From NCBI GenBank assembly GCA_020444065.1, contig JAHLLQ010000001.1, positions 434,001 through 498,000 on the forward strand: a DNA stretch of 64,000 nucleotides. The letters run 5' to 3'. Shown in pieces: positions 21,922 to 30,879 of this stretch. The notes beneath the pieces were generated by a model. The model did not search any database and had not been told where the DNA came from. It was given only the letters and a program-made list of their open reading frames with translations. Every line of letters begins with the position of its first letter. The stretch's first letter is position 1. The DNA is from a bacterium (GTDB lineage Bacteria > Sumerlaeota > Sumerlaeia > SLMS01 > JAHLLQ01). The position numbers and the translations under genes were made by a program.

Positions 21922-22111
21922 GGGCTGAGCGTCCTACCTGGCAGATGGAGAGGTGCGGATCAGAGCAAGTCCGGTTCCGCTTTCCGGCCGAACCATGCGC
22001 AAGGCCCTGGAACGGCGTAAAGGCGATTCGGGCCATCTTCAGTTGCCGCCGATTCAGTGGTCGTGTTTGCCTCGAATCCAGTTTGGGCCCTCGGGCCCCA
22101 TGGGGATCGGT

Positions 22112-23248
22112 ATGCGGATTCTAATCGACGCGCGATATCTGGATGGAACGTTCTCCGGCATTGCGACCTATAGTCGCCTGCTGGTGGAGCATCTGGCGCG
22201 TGTGGACGAGGAAAACGAATACCAGGTGGTCGTGCGGCCCGGATTCCGGGAGAGTATGACGCTGGGCGAGAACTTCGAACTGCTCTCCTACCGAGCCCGG
22301 CCGGTCAGCACTGCCAGCTACTTCCGCTACCAGGACTTGCTAAGCGACATGCAGCCGGACGTGGTCCACGCGCTATACCCAATTGCGCCCGTCTTCTACA
22401 ACGGCGCGCTGATCGTTACGATCCACGATGTGCAGCCGCTGATCGACCCGCACTTCTCCAGCCGCCGGCCGCGCTACATCCAGTGGGCGTACAATATGTT
22501 CTACCGCTGGGCTTATCCGAATACGCTGTCGAAGGCGAAGTGGATCATCTGCGATAGCTACAGCACGCGGGACGATGTGGCGCGACTGTTCCCCGGGGCC
22601 GTGTCGAAGCTGATCGTCATCCATCCCGGGCTCGATAAGTCGAAGCAGGAGCCACCGTCGGAAGGCCAGATCGAGGCGATCCGCGGCAAGTTCCACCTGA
22701 AGGAACGCTACCTCCTCTATTACGGTTCGACGCGTCCGAACAAGAACATTCCGGCGATGCTAAAGGCGTTCGCGCGGCTGAAACGACAGGAGGATGGTCA
22801 GTTTGCAGACCTGCAGTTTGCACTGATTCTGAAACGCGATCGCTTCTTCCGCGATATCGAGCGCACGGTGCGCCAAAAGGGGATCAAGGACGACGTGATT
22901 GTCCTCGACCAAGTGGAGCAGTCAGAACAGCGCGCGCTCCTGGCCGGATCGCAGGCCCTGGCCTTCGCGACGAAGTTCGAGGGGTTCGGCTTCCCCATTC
23001 TGGAAGCGATGGCCGCCGGCGTTCCGGTGCTGGCGGGCCGGAGCGGCTCCTTGCCCGAAGTCGCAGGAGAGGCGGCGCTGCTGGTCGATCCGGACGATCT
23101 GGACGACATCGCCGACGGCATGGCGCGGCTGCTGACGGATCAGGGACTCCGGGCGGATCTGGTTTCCGCCGGGCACGAGCGAATTACGGGGTTCGACTGG
23201 ATGGACACGGCCGAGCGAATTCGTGATATTTACAACTTGTTAATCTGA
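22112..23248 (+). CDS. GT4-family glycosyltransferase
   Basis: A 378-residue cytoplasmic GT-B glycosyltransferase. The N-terminal domain begins MRILIDARYLDGTFSGIATYSRLL, the usual acceptor-side Rossmann start. The C-terminal domain has YYGSTRPNKNIPAMLKAF, ATKFEGFGFPILEAMAAG (the EX7E-type nucleotide-sugar motif) and the conserved GRSGSLPEVAGEAALLVDP. The protein resembles mannosyl/rhamnosyl transferases of O-antigen or exopolysaccharide loci. ATG 22112 is preferred, with GGGG just upstream; an ATG at 22100 gives four more residues, and the frame is open back to 21953. Divergent from the GT-C gene. Confidence 0.88.
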   Translation: MRILIDARYLDGTFSGIATYSRLLVEHLARVDEENEYQVVVRPGFRESMTLGENFELLSYRARPVSTASYFRYQDLLSDMQPDVVHALYPIAPVFYNGALIVTIHDVQPLIDPHFSSRRPRYIQWAYNMFYRWAYPNTLSKAKWIICDSYSTRDDVARLFPGAVSKLIVIHPGLDKSKQEPPSEGQIEAIRGKFHLKERYLLYYGSTRPNKNIPAMLKAFARLKRQEDGQFADLQFALILKRDRFFRDIERTVRQKGIKDDVIVLDQVEQSEQRALLAGSQALAFATKFEGFGFPILEAMAAGVPVLAGRSGSLPEVAGEAALLVDPDDLDDIADGMARLLTDQGLRADLVSAGHERITGFDWMDTAERIRDIYNLLI

Positions 23249-23331: not shown

Positions 23332-25986
23332 ATGCAGACGCCGGACAGCCAAGTTCCCGAGTCCAGCCCGCTGCGACGGGCGATCTTCCCGTTTGCGGGG
23401 CTGTGGAAGCTGTGTTGGCTACGGCTGATTCGGGCGTGGCGGTGGCGGGCAGCGCTGCTGGTGTCGCTGATTGGCGCCTACATAATGGATTCCGGGATGT
23501 CGTTTGGACCCGGCGCCGCAGTGGCATTTCCCGGTGGTGAGATTGGCATCCGAGCGTTCTCCATCTTCTTCACGACCGCGGCTCTGGTTCTGGGCGTCGA
23601 CCTGGTCGGCCAACTCGATCGGCACTTCGCACGGAGAGCTTTCGACGCGCGACCGCTGCCGGGCCTATCGGTTCAAGCGGCGCGGTGTCTGGCCGTCGCG
23701 GCTGCTCTGCTAATTCCCGCCGCCGTCGTCACCATCTTCCCGTTCGCCTCTCCCTTCAACGATCATGGGAAGCTGCTGGTGGAACCCTCTTTGGTCCTAT
23801 TTGCCTGCGTCTTGGCGCCCTTGATCCTTGCTGGTGCATCTGCAGGCGTGTTCATGCGGTCATTCCTGCCAAACGATGGGGCGGCGCTGATTACGGGCGG
23901 AATCCTGCTGGTTCCAGTCGTCTGGCACCGGCTTATGCTGTCACACCCGGAGGAAATCCTCACGACAGCGTCTCGAAGTCTCGGGCTGCTCGTCCCGTCT
24001 TCGCTGCTGATCCAAGATGCCGTAGTTTGCCTCCTCGCCGCAGGGTTGTTCCTGGGTCTGGCAGTTCTGACGGTCCGCCGGGTTCGCCCAGCAACGCCGT
24101 TGCGTCGCCTCGATCCACCAAAGGGCTCGTTCCTACCATCGGCGCGGCGTGCGTTAGGCTTCGTTGGACGCTGTTTCAGGGCGCCACTGCCGAGCCTCGC
24201 GGGTGCGTTCGTGCTCATTCTGGCGGGTCTGTTGGCCGTTGCGACTTATGCGACCATGCGGCCGGTTCCGGAGTTCGATCCGGATTGGACGCTCCTGACG
24301 CAGCCTTCTGCAGCCACCCGCGGGCAGCTCCTGCCGCCCCGAATCATGCGCCGGGATATTGATATTCCCGACAACCCGGCCGAGCCGTACAGCGTCAGCC
24401 TGACCTTGAACGCCCTGCACGATCAGCCCCAGGTCCTCGCGGCTGTCACGTTCGGGCCAACGGTGGATCTTGTCGGCATCGACCGCGATGGCGGCGAGGT
24501 ACAAGTCGTTCCGACGGCAACGTCGCCGAAGATGTACGCGTACGCGCTTCGTTTCGATCCCCCACTGTCTCCGGATTCGGGCACGGAAGTCACATTCCAG
24601 CTGAAGCCCAAGCCTTCTGCACTTCGCCTCTGGGAGCGCACGCGCCATCCGGTGTTCGCCTCGTTCCAGTCCCTCCCCTACTGGTATGGCGAAGGTGCCG
24701 CCATCGATTATGCGTTCGAGAATTTCAACATCACCGAGCAAGGAACGCCGTTCGAGATCGCGCTGCCGGATGTGGAACCGCGGCGATGGTTCGCTGGCGC
24801 AGCAGTCACCTTCCGGCAAAACGGCCGACAGACGGTCGAGTCGCGTGCGGCAGATGTGCCGCGTGGGTTGTTCGCCGCGGAACTGGTAACCGTCCGCGCG
24901 GCTGAGGGGTCGCTGGATGTTCAATTCGTGGTCTTCCCCGAACACAAGGAACTGGCCGAGGGCCTGGAAGTAGCCTATGCGAGACGATTCGATCGCCTGC
25001 GGCGGGCATTTGGACAACCCCCGGCACCGCTGGTCTATTACGAAGTCCCCCAGGCGAATCCGCGCGATCCGATGGCGATCAGCTCCGCCGAGTTGGATCG
25101 GCTGAATGAAGTGCTGGAGGACTACAGCGACTACGAGAATCCCACGGCGGGGCAGTTCGACGAGGCGTTCGCACGGCTGCATTTCGGCGCCGTGACTCGG
25201 ATGTTCGCTGGCAGCTTCGCCGGATTCGAGCACCCGGAGTTGCTCCGGGATGCGTGGATTGAGTACCTCGACGGCCTGGCGTTCAACCGCGGCCAGACAC
25301 GACTGATGACGCGGATGGGTCGCGATTTCATCTTCGTACCGTGGGACTGGCAGCACAGAGAAGGGCGATTCCCCTTCGATCTGACGCCGCAGCAGGAACC
25401 GGGTTTCCGCGGGCCGATGTTGAAGTCGGATCGCCCACCGAATCTGGTCCCTGTCCCGCAGGAGCGGCGACTGGCCTTCCATCACATGCTGCGTGGCGTC
25501 CTTGGCGACGATGAGTACGCGCAGTTCCTTCGGACGCTGATCGATCAGAATCGCGCGAAGATCCTGACGCTGGCGGCAGTAAAGCAGACCGCCGAGGCGA
25601 CGGCCGGGAAGGACTTAGGCTGGTTCTTCGACCAGTGGCTGCGAGACGGCGTCGTGCCGCAGTATGATCTGAGCAAAGCGCAGGTGATCCTGGCTGAGAA
25701 TCCGGAGACTCGGGAGCTGGAATACACGACGCGGGTGGTCTTGAAGAACGAAGGCGATGGCCGTATGCCGGTGCCGGTTGTCCTGAGTACCGAGTCGGAC
25801 GAGATTCGGCGCGAATTCGACGTTACGGCCGGCGAGGAGGTTTCCATCACCTTCGTGACGCGGGATCGGCCAATTTCCGTGTCGGCAGACCCGGACGGGT
25901 GGATTGTTCAGATGCCGGAATTCGACGAGTTGGCCAAACGTCCTGTCCATCCACAGGTCTTATTGAAGACGGTGAAGGAACTTTAA
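23332..25986 (+). CDS. Membrane protein with degenerate M1-peptidase-like domain
   Basis: An 884-residue protein. Residues about 35-305 hold roughly eight membrane helices, like an ABC-2-type permease. Residues about 330-884 form a periplasmic region whose middle looks like an M1 (gluzincin) aminopeptidase. The zinc motif HExxH-x18-E is replaced by H617-F-G-A-V621 followed exactly 18 residues later by D640 (LRDAWIEYLDG, matching the family's LNEGFAEY). So only the first His is kept, and the domain should be inactive. An Ig-like beta domain closes the protein. M1 domains fused to ABC-2 permeases are known in transport loci, but no ATPase partner lies here. The next gene follows after 92 bases. 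Confidence 0.7.
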   Translation: MQTPDSQVPESSPLRRAIFPFAGLWKLCWLRLIRAWRWRAALLVSLIGAYIMDSGMSFGPGAAVAFPGGEIGIRAFSIFFTTAALVLGVDLVGQLDRHFARRAFDARPLPGLSVQAARCLAVAAALLIPAAVVTIFPFASPFNDHGKLLVEPSLVLFACVLAPLILAGASAGVFMRSFLPNDGAALITGGILLVPVVWHRLMLSHPEEILTTASRSLGLLVPSSLLIQDAVVCLLAAGLFLGLAVLTVRRVRPATPLRRLDPPKGSFLPSARRALGFVGRCFRAPLPSLAGAFVLILAGLLAVATYATMRPVPEFDPDWTLLTQPSAATRGQLLPPRIMRRDIDIPDNPAEPYSVSLTLNALHDQPQVLAAVTFGPTVDLVGIDRDGGEVQVVPTATSPKMYAYALRFDPPLSPDSGTEVTFQLKPKPSALRLWERTRHPVFASFQSLPYWYGEGAAIDYAFENFNITEQGTPFEIALPDVEPRRWFAGAAVTFRQNGRQTVESRAADVPRGLFAAELVTVRAAEGSLDVQFVVFPEHKELAEGLEVAYARRFDRLRRAFGQPPAPLVYYEVPQANPRDPMAISSAELDRLNEVLEDYSDYENPTAGQFDEAFARLHFGAVTRMFAGSFAGFEHPELLRDAWIEYLDGLAFNRGQTRLMTRMGRDFIFVPWDWQHREGRFPFDLTPQQEPGFRGPMLKSDRPPNLVPVPQERRLAFHHMLRGVLGDDEYAQFLRTLIDQNRAKILTLAAVKQTAEATAGKDLGWFFDQWLRDGVVPQYDLSKAQVILAENPETRELEYTTRVVLKNEGDGRMPVPVVLSTESDEIRREFDVTAGEEVSITFVTRDRPISVSADPDGWIVQMPEFDELAKRPVHPQVLLKTVKEL

Positions 25987-26078: not shown

Positions 26079-26783
26079 ATGCGCAGACTCTCTCTGGTTT
26101 TTTGTACAGCACTGACTTTACTCTTCTTAGTTCCGATTCTGGCGCAAGATGAGGCGACGCCGGAGCCGACCCCGGCCCCGAAGGGCAATGACGCCGTCGA
26201 GTTCCTGAAGCAGATCGAGGCCAAGAATAAGGATATCGAGACGCTGTGGGGGAAGTTCCATCAGCTTCGGGTCAACCCGATGTTCATGGAAGAGGTGGAG
26301 AGCAACGGCGAATTCTGGTACACCAAGCCGAATCACTTCCGGGCGGACTACTTCGAGCCATCCGAGATTCGCTTCTACATGTTCAAAGACGCGATTCTGA
26401 GCTACACGCCCAGCCTGCAGCAGGTCGAGAAGTACCCGGTCGAGAATGAAGATTCCGCCCCGATCAACCAGTTGCTGGTAGGATTCGGCGTAGAGACAGA
26501 GCGTATTCTGGATGTCTTCAATGTCCGGATGGCCGAAAAGCAGCCGGAGGACGAGAATCTCGTCAGCATCGCCTTTGTCTCGCGCGATGTGGAGCGGACA
26601 ATGGGTTACCAGCGCATCACAGTAACGTTCGATCGGAAGAAGCTGGAGCCGAAGGAGATCTTCCTCGAGGAAGAGCAGGACACGGTCACGGTGACCCTCC
26701 AAGAGGTGAAGTTCAACGCGAAGATCCCGCCGGAGACTTATGAGCCGGACTGGGGTGACGACGTGGAAGTGATCACGTATTGA
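26079..26783 (+). CDS. LolA-like outer-membrane lipoprotein carrier family protein
   Basis: A 234-residue periplasmic protein. Residues 1-22 are a signal peptide, followed by a Thr/Pro/Glu linker (EATPEPTPAP). Residues about 40-230 have the LolA pattern: a first helix with AVEFLKQIEAKNKDIETL, then strands WGKFHQLRVNPMF, SNGEFWYTKPNHFRADY and ILSYTPSLQQVEKYPV. LolA carries lipoproteins across the periplasm; relatives bind other acyl lipids, so cargo is uncertain. It heads a plus-strand series with an LptE-like lipoprotein, a histidine kinase, a response regulator and a polyphosphate glucokinase, with gaps of 87, 53, 2 and 49 bases. Confidence 0.8.
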   Translation: MRRLSLVFCTALTLLFLVPILAQDEATPEPTPAPKGNDAVEFLKQIEAKNKDIETLWGKFHQLRVNPMFMEEVESNGEFWYTKPNHFRADYFEPSEIRFYMFKDAILSYTPSLQQVEKYPVENEDSAPINQLLVGFGVETERILDVFNVRMAEKQPEDENLVSIAFVSRDVERTMGYQRITVTFDRKKLEPKEIFLEEEQDTVTVTLQEVKFNAKIPPETYEPDWGDDVEVITY

Positions 26784-26870: not shown

Positions 26871-27443
26871 ATGAAACGGCACTCGCTCCGTACCCTGCTG
26901 ACGATGGCAATCCTGACCGTACTGGCCGCAGCAATGATGACCGGGTGTACCCGGATTCCGCGCCAGCGCACACTGCCCCCGTCGATTCGCTCGGTGTCCG
27001 TGCCGATGTTCATCAATCGCTCTGCAGAGCCGCAGATCGAAGAGGACGCCACGGTCTACACCCAGGAAGAATTTCTCGCGGACGGGCGCCTGGACCTGGT
27101 TCGCCCGGAGAAGGCGGATGCAATCATCGACGTGACCATCGATGATTTCGTCGAGGAGAGCCCCTACCTGGATTCGGACGATTTGCCCGAGTCAACGCAG
27201 TACACAATTACGGCAACGGTCGAAGTGAAGCGCAATGTCCCGGGAATGCCTGTCATCGGCGGTGCGCGTCAGGTTATTGCATACGGGGGCTTCAATAGCG
27301 ACAAACGCCGCGTAAGCTACGAGCCGGAGCCGGTCGGGAAAGAACGCGTGCTGCGTGATTTTGCTCGCCTGATCGTTCGCGAAGTCATCACCGGCGAGTA
27401 TTCCGCCGAAGAGTACCTGGTTCCGTCGCCGTTGAGCCCGTGA
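26871..27443 (+). CDS. LptE-like outer membrane lipoprotein
   Basis: A 190-residue lipoprotein with a signal ending in MMTGC (C26). The mature part starts with LPPSIRSVSVPMFINRSAEP, the strand-and-turn pattern of the LptE/LPS-assembly family. This is followed by TQEEFLADGRLDLV and later beta strands and a final helix (RDFARLIVREVI). LptE plugs the LptD barrel that inserts lipopolysaccharide in the outer leaflet. No lptD is in the window, so the assignment rests on the domain pattern alone. Together with the LolA-like gene upstream it suggests an outer-membrane theme for this segment. Confidence 0.72.
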   Translation: MKRHSLRTLLTMAILTVLAAAMMTGCTRIPRQRTLPPSIRSVSVPMFINRSAEPQIEEDATVYTQEEFLADGRLDLVRPEKADAIIDVTIDDFVEESPYLDSDDLPESTQYTITATVEVKRNVPGMPVIGGARQVIAYGGFNSDKRRVSYEPEPVGKERVLRDFARLIVREVITGEYSAEEYLVPSPLSP

Positions 27444-27496: not shown

Positions 27497-29608
27497 GTGC
27501 CGGAAATCGACCTATCGATCCTCCACAAGCGCGACCTGCCCAATCTGCCGCCCCGTTCGCTGGCCATTCGCCAGTTTCTTCGTCGCAATCTTCTGATCAT
27601 CCTGTCTGCCATCATCTTCGTGTCAGTCGCGGTGATGGTATTCAGCCAGATGGACCGCGTGTACTACGGACAGGCAAAGGAACAACTGGTCGCCGATGAG
27701 ATTCGTCTCAACCGCCTGCTGGGCGACGGTTCCCGGGATCAACTCTCAGAACTGACGAAGTCATTCCTTCTAACCTACACAGCGCAACCCCACCCCAATC
27801 CCCGCATCGAGGAGCAGCGCCTGGAGTTGCTCCATCGCATCGAAGATCAGATGGTGGTGCTCCTGGAAAACAACCCGATGGCCTATCGGGTCGTTGTGAA
27901 GGACCGAAATGGGGAAGTCGTTGCGGAGACTTCAGACTACGATCGGATCGAGAAGCAGAACAACTGGAGCAACTCACTCTTCACGCGCCAGTGGTTGAAG
28001 CGTTTGGTGAGCGATTCGCGCTCCGGAAACCAAAACGTCGGGACGACGGAGTTGTACTACACATCGCCGCTTGGCGTGCCGGAAATCGAATCCCTGACGC
28101 GTGAGTGGCGTTTCCGCATCGCAGCGGTCGGCGTCGGGCTGGCCTGCTTCTATGCGGCACTGCTGTGGGGACTTCTACTGCCGGTGCGGCGCGTGATCAA
28201 GGCGCTCGACAAGGGAGCGGAAGTCGGTGCTCCAGTGATTCCGCGGCCCCGGACGCTGCTGGAGAGATATTATAACAATCTGGCGCGGGATGCGACGTTG
28301 TCGCTCTTCTCGACGGGACTTCGCGAGTTTGTGTCGCGCGAGGGCTTGCTGGATCACCAGCCCTTGCTGCGGCTCGCTCCCCCGCTGATCGATCGACTGT
28401 TCCACCTGGATTGCGTGGAGATCTGGACCTACCGCCACTCACCGGATGAGGATCGTTGGGTGTCTGAGGGATATTACTCTGTCGCCGATGATGCGAAACC
28501 AGACTCCGGCTTTCAGATGATGCTGGCACACGCCCTTGCTTCGGAACCGCCGGACGAACATCCGGATGCGTGGTCCGCGTGCGTGCGGGAGTTCTTCGAC
28601 GATAACGACGCTGCTCAATCGTGGTTTGTTGAGCACTTGGAGACGAGTGACTCGACGGTGACGCTCTTCGTAGCGCATGCATCCGGCGGGCGGCGCATCA
28701 TCGCGGGCTGGTGGCAGGAACTCTATCAGAACATCGCCCAGGAAATCCGTTTCGCGATGCGGACGATTTCCGAGCAGCGCCGGATGATTCTGCAGGAGAA
28801 GAGCAAAGCGAACATTTCGCTCTCGCGCAACCTCGGGCACGATCTCACAAACATCATTGCGACAAGCAAGCTCGAGTTGATGACCGTGAAGCGATTCCTG
28901 GAAATGCCCCCGCAGGAGATTCGCGACGCCCCTGTGAAGCAGCAGATCTTTGGCGAATCGCTGCAAGCGCTGCTGAACAACACGCGCTTCCTTCAAGAGA
29001 TCGTGAATCTCTATCGTTCTTTCACGTATCTGTCCCGGCCAAAATTCGAAAAGGTCAGCCTGAGCGAGCTCGTACACGACGTCAGCGAGCTGTTTTCGCT
29101 GTCGATTTCGCCGAGCATCGATTTGCACCTGGAGTTGGACGAAAACTTGCAACCGCTGGAAGTGGAACCGCGGCTGCTGCGGCTTGCACTCTTCAATATC
29201 CTGAGTAATGCGGCCGATTCGATCAAGCGATCGACGGCAGCAGAGAAACCGCGCGGGGAAATCTGGCTGCGCACTCGACGGGGAGAGCGTCAACAGACGC
29301 AGGAAGTTCTGGTGGAAGATAACGGCGACGGCATTCGTGGCCATGATGGGCATCTGCTGAAGCCGGAAGAGATCGATGAGATCTTCCGATTGGGCTTCAC
29401 CACGAAGGAGAAGAACTCAGGCGAGGGCCTCGGGTTGAATTGGGTACAGCAGATCGTGCGCGATTTCCACCAGGGCCAGATCATGCCACGCAATCGCTCT
29501 GCGGGCGGAGCGTCCTTCAGCATTATCCTTCCGCTGGAACCTGCGGAAGGTGCCGAAAGTAACGGCAGCCGCGAATCGAACGAGACCAACGCGCAATCCG
29601 GAGGCTGA
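27497..29608 (+). CDS. Membrane sensor histidine kinase, HDxxN type
   Basis: A 703-residue kinase. Two membrane helices (about residues 32-50 and 205-228) bracket a periplasmic sensor domain of about 155 residues. A cytoplasmic region follows (about 230-425) that could hold a GAF-like fold. The H-box is LGHDLTNIIATSKLELM with H448, an HDxxN variant like that of PrsK-type kinases rather than the usual HExxxP. The HATPase domain has N571 in ILSNAADSIK, G1 in VEDNGDGI, and G2 in FTTKEKNSGEGLGLNW. The start is a GTG at 27497. The response regulator begins two bases after its stop, so the two form a cognate pair, transcribed with the LolA-like and LptE-like genes. Confidence 0.9.
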   Translation: MPEIDLSILHKRDLPNLPPRSLAIRQFLRRNLLIILSAIIFVSVAVMVFSQMDRVYYGQAKEQLVADEIRLNRLLGDGSRDQLSELTKSFLLTYTAQPHPNPRIEEQRLELLHRIEDQMVVLLENNPMAYRVVVKDRNGEVVAETSDYDRIEKQNNWSNSLFTRQWLKRLVSDSRSGNQNVGTTELYYTSPLGVPEIESLTREWRFRIAAVGVGLACFYAALLWGLLLPVRRVIKALDKGAEVGAPVIPRPRTLLERYYNNLARDATLSLFSTGLREFVSREGLLDHQPLLRLAPPLIDRLFHLDCVEIWTYRHSPDEDRWVSEGYYSVADDAKPDSGFQMMLAHALASEPPDEHPDAWSACVREFFDDNDAAQSWFVEHLETSDSTVTLFVAHASGGRRIIAGWWQELYQNIAQEIRFAMRTISEQRRMILQEKSKANISLSRNLGHDLTNIIATSKLELMTVKRFLEMPPQEIRDAPVKQQIFGESLQALLNNTRFLQEIVNLYRSFTYLSRPKFEKVSLSELVHDVSELFSLSISPSIDLHLELDENLQPLEVEPRLLRLALFNILSNAADSIKRSTAAEKPRGEIWLRTRRGERQQTQEVLVEDNGDGIRGHDGHLLKPEEIDEIFRLGFTTKEKNSGEGLGLNWVQQIVRDFHQGQIMPRNRSAGGASFSIILPLEPAEGAESNGSRESNETNAQSGG

Positions 29609-29610
29609 GC

Positions 29611-30879
29611 ATGCCGGTAAAAGTACTGATCGTGGATGACAACGCGATGTATCGCAACGCATTCAAACGCAACATGATGTTGCAGAACTACGACGTTGTC
29701 GAAGCGGAAAACGCAGAGCAGGCGATCGGCGTCTACCAGGAATCTCGGCCGGATGTGGTCGTTACGGATCTGAGTATGGGTTCGCCGACAGAGGGCCTTG
29801 ACTTGATTCGATCGATCAAACAGGTGGAGCCGCTGGTACCTATCGTGATGATCAGCGCAGTCGGTACGTTTGAAGAGGGTGCAGAAGCCTCGCGACTTGG
29901 CGCTCATTCCGTGATCAGCAAGGCCCGCATTGATGAGGAGATTGAAAGCCTCTATCGAACCATCGAAGAGGCCAGCCAAGTCGGTGAACTCAACCGAAAC
30001 GTTCGCGATGAAGTGCAGCAGCTCTCCGGCGGACCAGAGGGCGAGGTCTCGCAGGATCGAATCGATCGCTTGCGGCAGATCATTGGCAATCCGAAGCTCC
30101 ACGCCAGCGTCCGTGGCGAGGCGTACGACGCTTTGCTTCAAGCAACCGAGACGGAAGTTCGCCTGTCCATGGAGAAAGAAGTCGAGGAGGCCGATCGCGC
30201 AGAACTGGAAGAAGCAGAGCAGCGACTCGAGGAATTGATCCCCGGGTTCCAATCGTTTTCGGCGGATTCGCGAAAGGAGCTTTGCACGGCGGAGTACTTC
30301 TTCCATCGCCAGGGCGGAGACCACGTGCAGGGACAGGCGGACTTCTCTCGCAATATCGGTTTTTCGTTCTGCTTTGCGGTGGAAAACGAAGCAAAGAGCC
30401 GTCTGCGCAAGCGTTTACACAAGTTCCTGTCAAATAGCGACTCGGTTCGGCTGATCCGCAAGTTGATCGACAAGAAGACAGGCCAGCTCGACCTATTCTA
30501 CCATCAACATCTCGCGCGGCTGCAGCAGCAAGTGGCGTTTGATTTCACGATCGACAACGTCCGCCAGGTCTTCCAGCGGATCCTCGAGCACGAGTCGCGC
30601 TACAAGCCCGACGGCCTGAAGGCACTTGGGATCATGGTGTTGTGCTTTGGACGAGAGTACTCGATCAAGACGTTGCGCGAGACGATCAAGATCAACAATC
30701 CGATGAATCTGCGCGGGTTCGAGTCGGAGAACGAGATCATTCGGTTTGCGCACTTGCTGGTCTCGCTCCAGCACTATCGCAATCCGTACATCCATCCCGA
30801 GATCAGCGAGATGGAGAAGATTTCGAAGATTCGCGAAACTGCCATCCAATGCTTGCGCGAAATCTCCCGGTTAGGGTGA
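29611..30879 (+). CDS. Response regulator with C-terminal HEPN-like domain
   Basis: A 422-residue protein. Residues 1-125 are a receiver domain with acidic pair D9-D10, phosphoacceptor D53 (VVTDLSM), a Ser in VMISA and a Lys in VISKARI. A coiled, acidic linker follows (about 125-225). The C-terminal domain (about 230-422) has an all-helical pattern: LCTAEYFF, then FSRNIGFSFCFAVENEAK, and near the end HYRNPYIHPEI, in which R390-N391-x3-H395 is the R-X4-H signature of HEPN domains. HEPN proteins are often RNases of defence, toxin-antitoxin and RNA-processing systems; some are inactive. No DNA-binding output domain is present. It is probably controlled by phosphorylation from the adjacent kinase. 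The HEPN call is inference from the motif and layout. Confidence 0.75.
   Translation: MPVKVLIVDDNAMYRNAFKRNMMLQNYDVVEAENAEQAIGVYQESRPDVVVTDLSMGSPTEGLDLIRSIKQVEPLVPIVMISAVGTFEEGAEASRLGAHSVISKARIDEEIESLYRTIEEASQVGELNRNVRDEVQQLSGGPEGEVSQDRIDRLRQIIGNPKLHASVRGEAYDALLQATETEVRLSMEKEVEEADRAELEEAEQRLEELIPGFQSFSADSRKELCTAEYFFHRQGGDHVQGQADFSRNIGFSFCFAVENEAKSRLRKRLHKFLSNSDSVRLIRKLIDKKTGQLDLFYHQHLARLQQQVAFDFTIDNVRQVFQRILEHESRYKPDGLKALGIMVLCFGREYSIKTLRETIKINNPMNLRGFESENEIIRFAHLLVSLQHYRNPYIHPEISEMEKISKIRETAIQCLREISRLG

Follow-up and report, generated by a model that had tools for sequence, protein, structure and literature searches.

What use is a peptidase fold that has lost its zinc site and is tethered to the membrane by a transporter-like domain? 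This question is raised by a gene in a 64,000-nucleotide stretch of DNA (the window, taken at its full length) from a genome of Candidatus Sumerlaeota, the group to which the named relatives of its product also belong. An earlier note had described the encoded protein as an ABC-2-like membrane half joined to an M1-peptidase-like domain without its zinc ligands. The features of the gene are as follows:

23332..25986, + strand: focal gene, encoding an ABC-2::M1-like fusion protein of 884 aa (open reading frame, AlphaFold2, VIA-align, hhalign)
23368..24066, + strand: predicted ABC-2 (type V) membrane domain, residues 13-245, NosY-like (AlphaFold2 helices, NosY match, hydrophobic segments)
24187..24255, + strand: predicted seventh transmembrane helix, residues 286-308 (AlphaFold2 model, hydrophobic segments)
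24340..25962, + strand: predicted M1-aminopeptidase-like domains, residues 337-877, in the order beta, alpha, beta (AlphaFold2, Foldseek, VIA-align, hhalign)

Nothing in Pfam or NCBIfam scored above cut-off against the focal protein, a sequence search of PDB chains returned no relative (best E 0.75, unrelated), and promoter and terminator scans gave chance-level results only. An AlphaFold2 model, computed from the window protein together with seven orthologues, reached a mean pLDDT of 80.7 and a pTM of 0.72. Its residues 19-250 superpose on NosY (7o0y chain D; VIA-align Z 17.0, 216 residues, 3.2 Å), and ABCG2 also matches (Z 15.8); helical models can reach Z of about 13 to 14 through their common arrangement alone, a level that the NosY match exceeds while spanning the whole membrane domain. 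As modelled, the N-terminal half is a six-helix type V ABC fold, which upholds the proposed ABC-2-like membrane domain, although the best Pfam ABC-2 family, ABC2_membrane, gave just E 0.7 (9.8 bits against a cut-off of 26.9). The protein contains seven hydrophobic segments, so that the M1-like part should be periplasmic.

The predicted C-terminal part has an overall M1 fold. In hhalign comparisons, the orthologue family matched 12 intact M1 peptidases with a probability of 99.2% (E 5.6e-20), and the wider family matched M1 peptidases with 99.7% (E 3.1e-25). The 50 Foldseek matches listed for the model were M1-type peptidases (best E 7.7e-13), and the M1 peptidase 8sw0 aligned with residues 330-865 (VIA-align Z 19.1, 470 residues, 5.4 Å). 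The M1 assignment of the earlier note is thereby confirmed, with PF01433 itself staying below its curated cut-off on this protein (13.2 bits against 27.7, E 0.069).

We identified the focal family in 17 of 40 Candidatus Sumerlaeota genomes, a count that omits weaker hits to the C-terminal M1 region of ordinary M1 proteins. Outside this group, it was seen only in G182 and G319 among 386 genomes (E <= 1e-22), in a survey that scored two candidates per genome and whose absences therefore mean little; in the phylum of these two genomes, the second phylum below, nine of 14 genomes hold the gene. It is split over two contigs in G003 and G026 and broken into two frames in G386. Operon counts depend on contig ends, and loci L051-L057 lie on the same contigs as L032, L034, L033, L006, L035, L031 and L038 and are not independent of them.

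Examination of the neighbourhoods revealed a link that is new relative to the earlier note: RND pump genes adjoin the focal gene in 16 of 26 genomes, spread over two phyla, usually in the order RND1 - ABC2::M1-like - RND2::ABC-ATPase. Within Sumerlaeota, an RND gene lies directly beside the focal family in seven of 17 genomes:

L039, L041, L043, L044, L045 with L097, L046, L095: RND-adjacent Sumerlaeota loci

Two of these, L039 and L041, encode a 1463-aa RND::ABC fusion, in which (for L039) the RND part covers residues 22-1062 and the ABC ATPase residues 1187-1330, while L097 reads TolC-like, HlyD, ABC ATPase, RND1 and the start of the focal homologue. All nine gene-holding genomes of the second phylum carry RND1 directly upstream of the focal gene, and eight carry an RND gene directly downstream (G390 reaches a contig end); the downstream gene is an unbroken RND::ABC open reading frame in six of the nine, and a separate ABC ATPase is found further upstream in eight of the nine. 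The fullest operon, L103, comprises HlyD, ABC, ABC-2, RND1, ABC2::M1-like, RND2::ABC and TolC-like genes. The nearby ABC ATPase that the earlier note proposed to look for in other genomes therefore exists, either as an RND::ABC fusion or as a separate ATPase.

The RND::ABC fusions retain intact Walker A, signature and Walker B motifs. With regard to a possible loss of proton coupling in the RND parts, all 19 RND::ABC and all nine RND1 sequences compared retain the first TM4 Asp, whose position we take from a mapping onto AcrB, and have Asn or Ser immediately after it, with no difference between the two sets. The window genome encodes such a fusion on contig C2 (G000:C2:147100-151644, equivalent to L048:9101-13645; 1515 aa, ACR_tran E 1.7e-197, ABC_tran E 2.6e-27). 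In the window's own order (families f1 and f2), the focal gene lies apart from the fusion, and in the window's own family the hybrid link is backed by co-occurrence, not by gene adjacency. Among the 40 Sumerlaeota genomes, 14 hold both genes, three the focal gene only, one the fusion only and 22 neither (Fisher p 3.9e-7, ignoring kinship); if G027 and G034, in which a contig end truncates the fusion, are included, the counts become 16, 1, 1 and 22 (p 4.4e-9, likewise ignoring kinship). The shared absence in G005 and G006, two members of one genus in the window's order, amounts to about one event, and G010, which has the fusion without the focal gene, is 80% complete. An open reading frame near the window-genome fusion (L048:15196-16053) matches Imm42.

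In a survey that likewise scored two candidates per genome, a second kind of fusion was found in five non-Sumerlaeota genomes, with RND1 upstream:

L106:1506-6290, L107:6942-11711, L108:907-5643, L109:6921-11669, L110:7520-12322: RND::ABC fusions of the second kind

These proteins are 1579-1601 aa long, with about 250 extra residues, including membrane segments, between the RND and ABC parts. In four of the five genomes the gene after the fusion encodes a protein of 239-287 aa that has five or six hydrophobic segments; G093, whose RND and ABC parts occupy two distinct open reading frames, has a small protein of this type in the corresponding place. Two of the five small proteins match ABC2_membrane_2 weakly, below cut-off, and comparison of the focal membrane domain with them was collinear and not significant (P 0.041, probability 0.7%). 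A small ABC-2-like protein after these fusions would agree with a requirement of the fusion for an ABC-2 subunit, a part that the focal family would play in Sumerlaeota and the second phylum. Upstream open reading frames in L107, L109 and L110 are of TolC-like and HlyD-like size, judged by size alone.

We consider it reasonably probable that the focal protein serves as ABC-2 permease subunit in an envelope transporter of hybrid RND-ABC type, with its M1 domain catalytically dead. Its N-terminal six helices would form the type V ABC membrane domain. For ATP, the transporter would rely on an ABC ATPase domain, which most relatives encode as the C-terminal part of a fusion with a full-length RND pump of the AcrB type. 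The window genome encodes this RND::ABC fusion elsewhere, and there it would act in trans, possibly through a physical complex with the focal protein.

A rival reading is a conventional ABC-2 exporter or a mechanotransmission ABC system, without a physical tie to RND, in which the focal protein would pair with a DrrA-like ATPase encoded separately, next to it in f2 and at another place in f1. Four f2 genomes hold the focal gene, and in three of them (L034, L035 and L038) it is followed by genes for a DrrA-like ATPase and an ABC-2 permease, assigned by Pfam on L035 and by similarity at the two other loci; the fourth locus sits on a 4.2-kb contig. The window genome, with 57 ABC ATPase matches, would offer ample choice of partner. 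Two observations speak against this alternative: a Pfam scan of five open reading frames neighbouring the RND::ABC fusion of the window genome showed no ABC-2 partner, and RND genes flank the focal family in 16 of 26 genomes of two phyla. We regard the conventional arrangement as unlikely, while noting that in f2 the ATP partner may differ. A search of the window genome for a protein matching the f2 ABC-2 permease, run without a positive control, found none. In L035, the focal homologue is separated from the ABC ATPase by a signal-peptidase-like gene (PF10502; L035:12503-13132), and a similar open reading frame is present in L038.

In the hybrid RND-ABC reading, the local operon may indicate the cargo. 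All five genomes of the window's family encode, in order, a glycosyltransferase, the focal gene, LolA, an LptE-like protein, a histidine kinase and a response regulator (in G003 the order was read over two contigs). In the window these neighbours are:

21953..23248, + strand: family-4 glycosyltransferase, first gene of the conserved operon (Pfam, orthologue comparison)
26079..26783, + strand: LolA-like periplasmic carrier (PF03548, E 9.9e-13; orthologue beside the focal gene in five of five genomes)
26871..27443, + strand: LptE-like lipoprotein (51-57% identity to orthologues)
27497..29608, + strand: sensor histidine kinase of the operon
29611..30879, + strand: response-regulator protein of the operon

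The start of the glycosyltransferase probably lies later than the listed GTG, because orthologues match from about residue 41-56. The window copy of the LptE-like protein has no Pfam match; orthologues in three genomes match PF04390 above cut-off. No ABC ATPase was found near the focal gene in the window genome, the nearest match lying about 116 kb away. Together, the LolA, LptE and glycosyltransferase neighbours suggest that a lipid-type cargo may be delivered towards the outer membrane.

The conserved gene order and the LolA and LptE assignments also favour a machine for lipoprotein or lipid release, analogous to LolCDE and working with the adjacent LolA and LptE proteins, in which the M1-like domain would pass cargo to LolA. 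Set against this, a LolC/E-like protein is already encoded in the window genome (G000:C5:81716-82960; 328 bits, just under the curated cut-off of 362), and no match for the window LolA was found beside the gene in the f2 loci. LolCDE is marked by a MacB/LolCE-type permease fold and the LolD ATPase; here, the structural matches listed are M1 and type V ABC chains, a list that leaves room for other folds, and no ATPase is adjacent. As a separate explanation we find this improbable, and as a local role it is compatible with the hybrid transporter and so hardly a true alternative to it.

Returning to the M1-like half of this putative hybrid subunit, two residues had been singled out as occupying the HExxH-x18-E positions of M1 peptidases:

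25180..25182, + strand: H617, remnant at the HExxH helix, register uncertain (sequence, orthologue alignment, profile alignment)
25249..25251, + strand: D640, at the zinc-binding Glu position (both profile comparisons)

The string H617-F-G-A-V621 and D640 are exactly where the earlier note placed them, and the window protein has no HExxH. The spacing alone is not evidence, because chance gives such pairs: of the 13 His in the focal protein, two have D/E at +23, and 78% of shuffled versions contain at least one such pair. D640 falls on the zinc Glu in both hhalign comparisons, so this half of the assignment stands. The claim that H617 is the first zinc His, and the only one remaining, does not fare as well: the orthologue comparison puts H617 on the second zinc His and F613 on the first, with four extra residues before D640, and the wider-family comparison places H617 elsewhere, which makes the proposed register one of several possible. 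In the ungapped register, HExxV is still present in two of nine orthologues (G002 and G007).

The loss of the catalytic residues is family-wide. HExxH is present in none of the 26 genomes holding the focal gene (19 genomes checked as 21 pieces, G003 without the part around D640, plus seven further genomes); the relatives with an intact motif that would have made this a decayed copy were thus sought and not found, and the claimed zinc-site loss extends to all of them. The GxMEN exopeptidase motif is absent, GGMEN aligning with DPMAI in hhalign, as is the catalytic Tyr, whose aligned residue is K698, or Q710 without a gap. The stretches HMLR and WFFxQW are conserved in the focal family. A genome-wide search of the window genome gave no PF01433 match at E 0.001, so that no ordinary M1 peptidase is recognised there.

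The idea that the domain is a working hydrolase, its metal site rebuilt from H617, D640 and the H717-H718 pair, could draw on conservation within the order: eight of nine members have His at position 617 (G001 has Gln), two of nine have Glu at position 618, position 640 is acidic in six of the eight covering the site (Ser in G007 and G009), and H717-H718 is kept in all members covering those positions. H617 and the H717-H718 pair are, however, not kept in class-level or second-phylum members, and the equivalents of the catalytic Glu, GxMEN and Tyr are gone, making such an enzyme very improbable. A decayed gene heading for loss, to which the missing catalytic motif might point, can be practically dismissed, and recent decay was rejected, because the loss is identical in 26 of 26 genomes, reading frames are full-length in most of them and non-catalytic motifs are conserved.

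In the hybrid transporter, then, the seventh helix would lead to a periplasmic, catalytically dead M1-fold domain. The role of this domain would most likely be that of a mechanical or docking module for an RND protein, an adaptor or a carrier, and not that of a peptidase. The binding or scaffold role suggested by the earlier note is likewise an inference.

Several known systems share parts of this arrangement. M1 aminopeptidases (PF01433; PepN, ERAP1, LTA4H) have the same predicted fold as the C-terminal 540 residues and share the conserved HMLR and WFFxQW stretches, whereas the focal protein lacks their catalytic motifs, scores below the Pfam cut-off and is fused to an ABC-2 domain. Fusions of an ABC transporter permease with an M1 aminopeptidase, with an intact zinc site, are a name in public annotation; they likewise join ABC-2 and M1 parts, but differ from the focal family in retaining HExxH. 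TAF2, a eukaryotic protein of M1 fold, is considered to be without peptidase function, its M1-like domain being a structural part; unlike the focal protein, it is nuclear and has no membrane domain. TAF150 proteins are described as having an aminopeptidase domain (PMC1199594). RND tripartite pumps of the AcrAB-TolC and MdtABC type have an RND pair, an HlyD adaptor and a TolC-like channel, all present in the fullest operons here, where one RND additionally has a C-terminal ABC ATPase and the operon includes an ABC-2 subunit. The type V ABC transporter NosDFY, an ABC machine with a large periplasmic part, shares the NosY membrane fold with the focal protein; in the latter, the periplasmic part would be the fused M1-like domain instead of NosD, and in relatives the ATPase is fused to RND. 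MacAB-TolC and YbbAP-TesA are presented as ABC machines with periplasmic partners (PMC5985334, PMC12646458); they differ in having a Type VII fold, no RND component and no M1-like domain.

None of the three components, M1 fold, ABC-2 domain and RND pump, is new in itself. Relative to the literature searched, mostly outside subscription journals, in which no description of an RND::ABC or M1/ABC-2 fusion was met, what is new is one conserved operon combining all three, together with the RND::ABC fusion. It is conceivable, at somewhat less than an even chance in our estimate, that these genes represent a new transporter class, consisting of an RND::ABC fusion and an ABC-2 subunit with a retired M1 periplasmic half, in which ATP hydrolysis and the RND cycle would act on one cargo and the dead peptidase would couple ABC motion to the RND periplasmic domain or a LolA-type carrier. 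RND and ABC pumps are regarded as two distinct families, each with its own energy source; the operons in two phyla offer a direct test of whether ATP can drive or gate an RND cycle, and in the focal family a peptidase fold would have been put to new use as part of a transporter.
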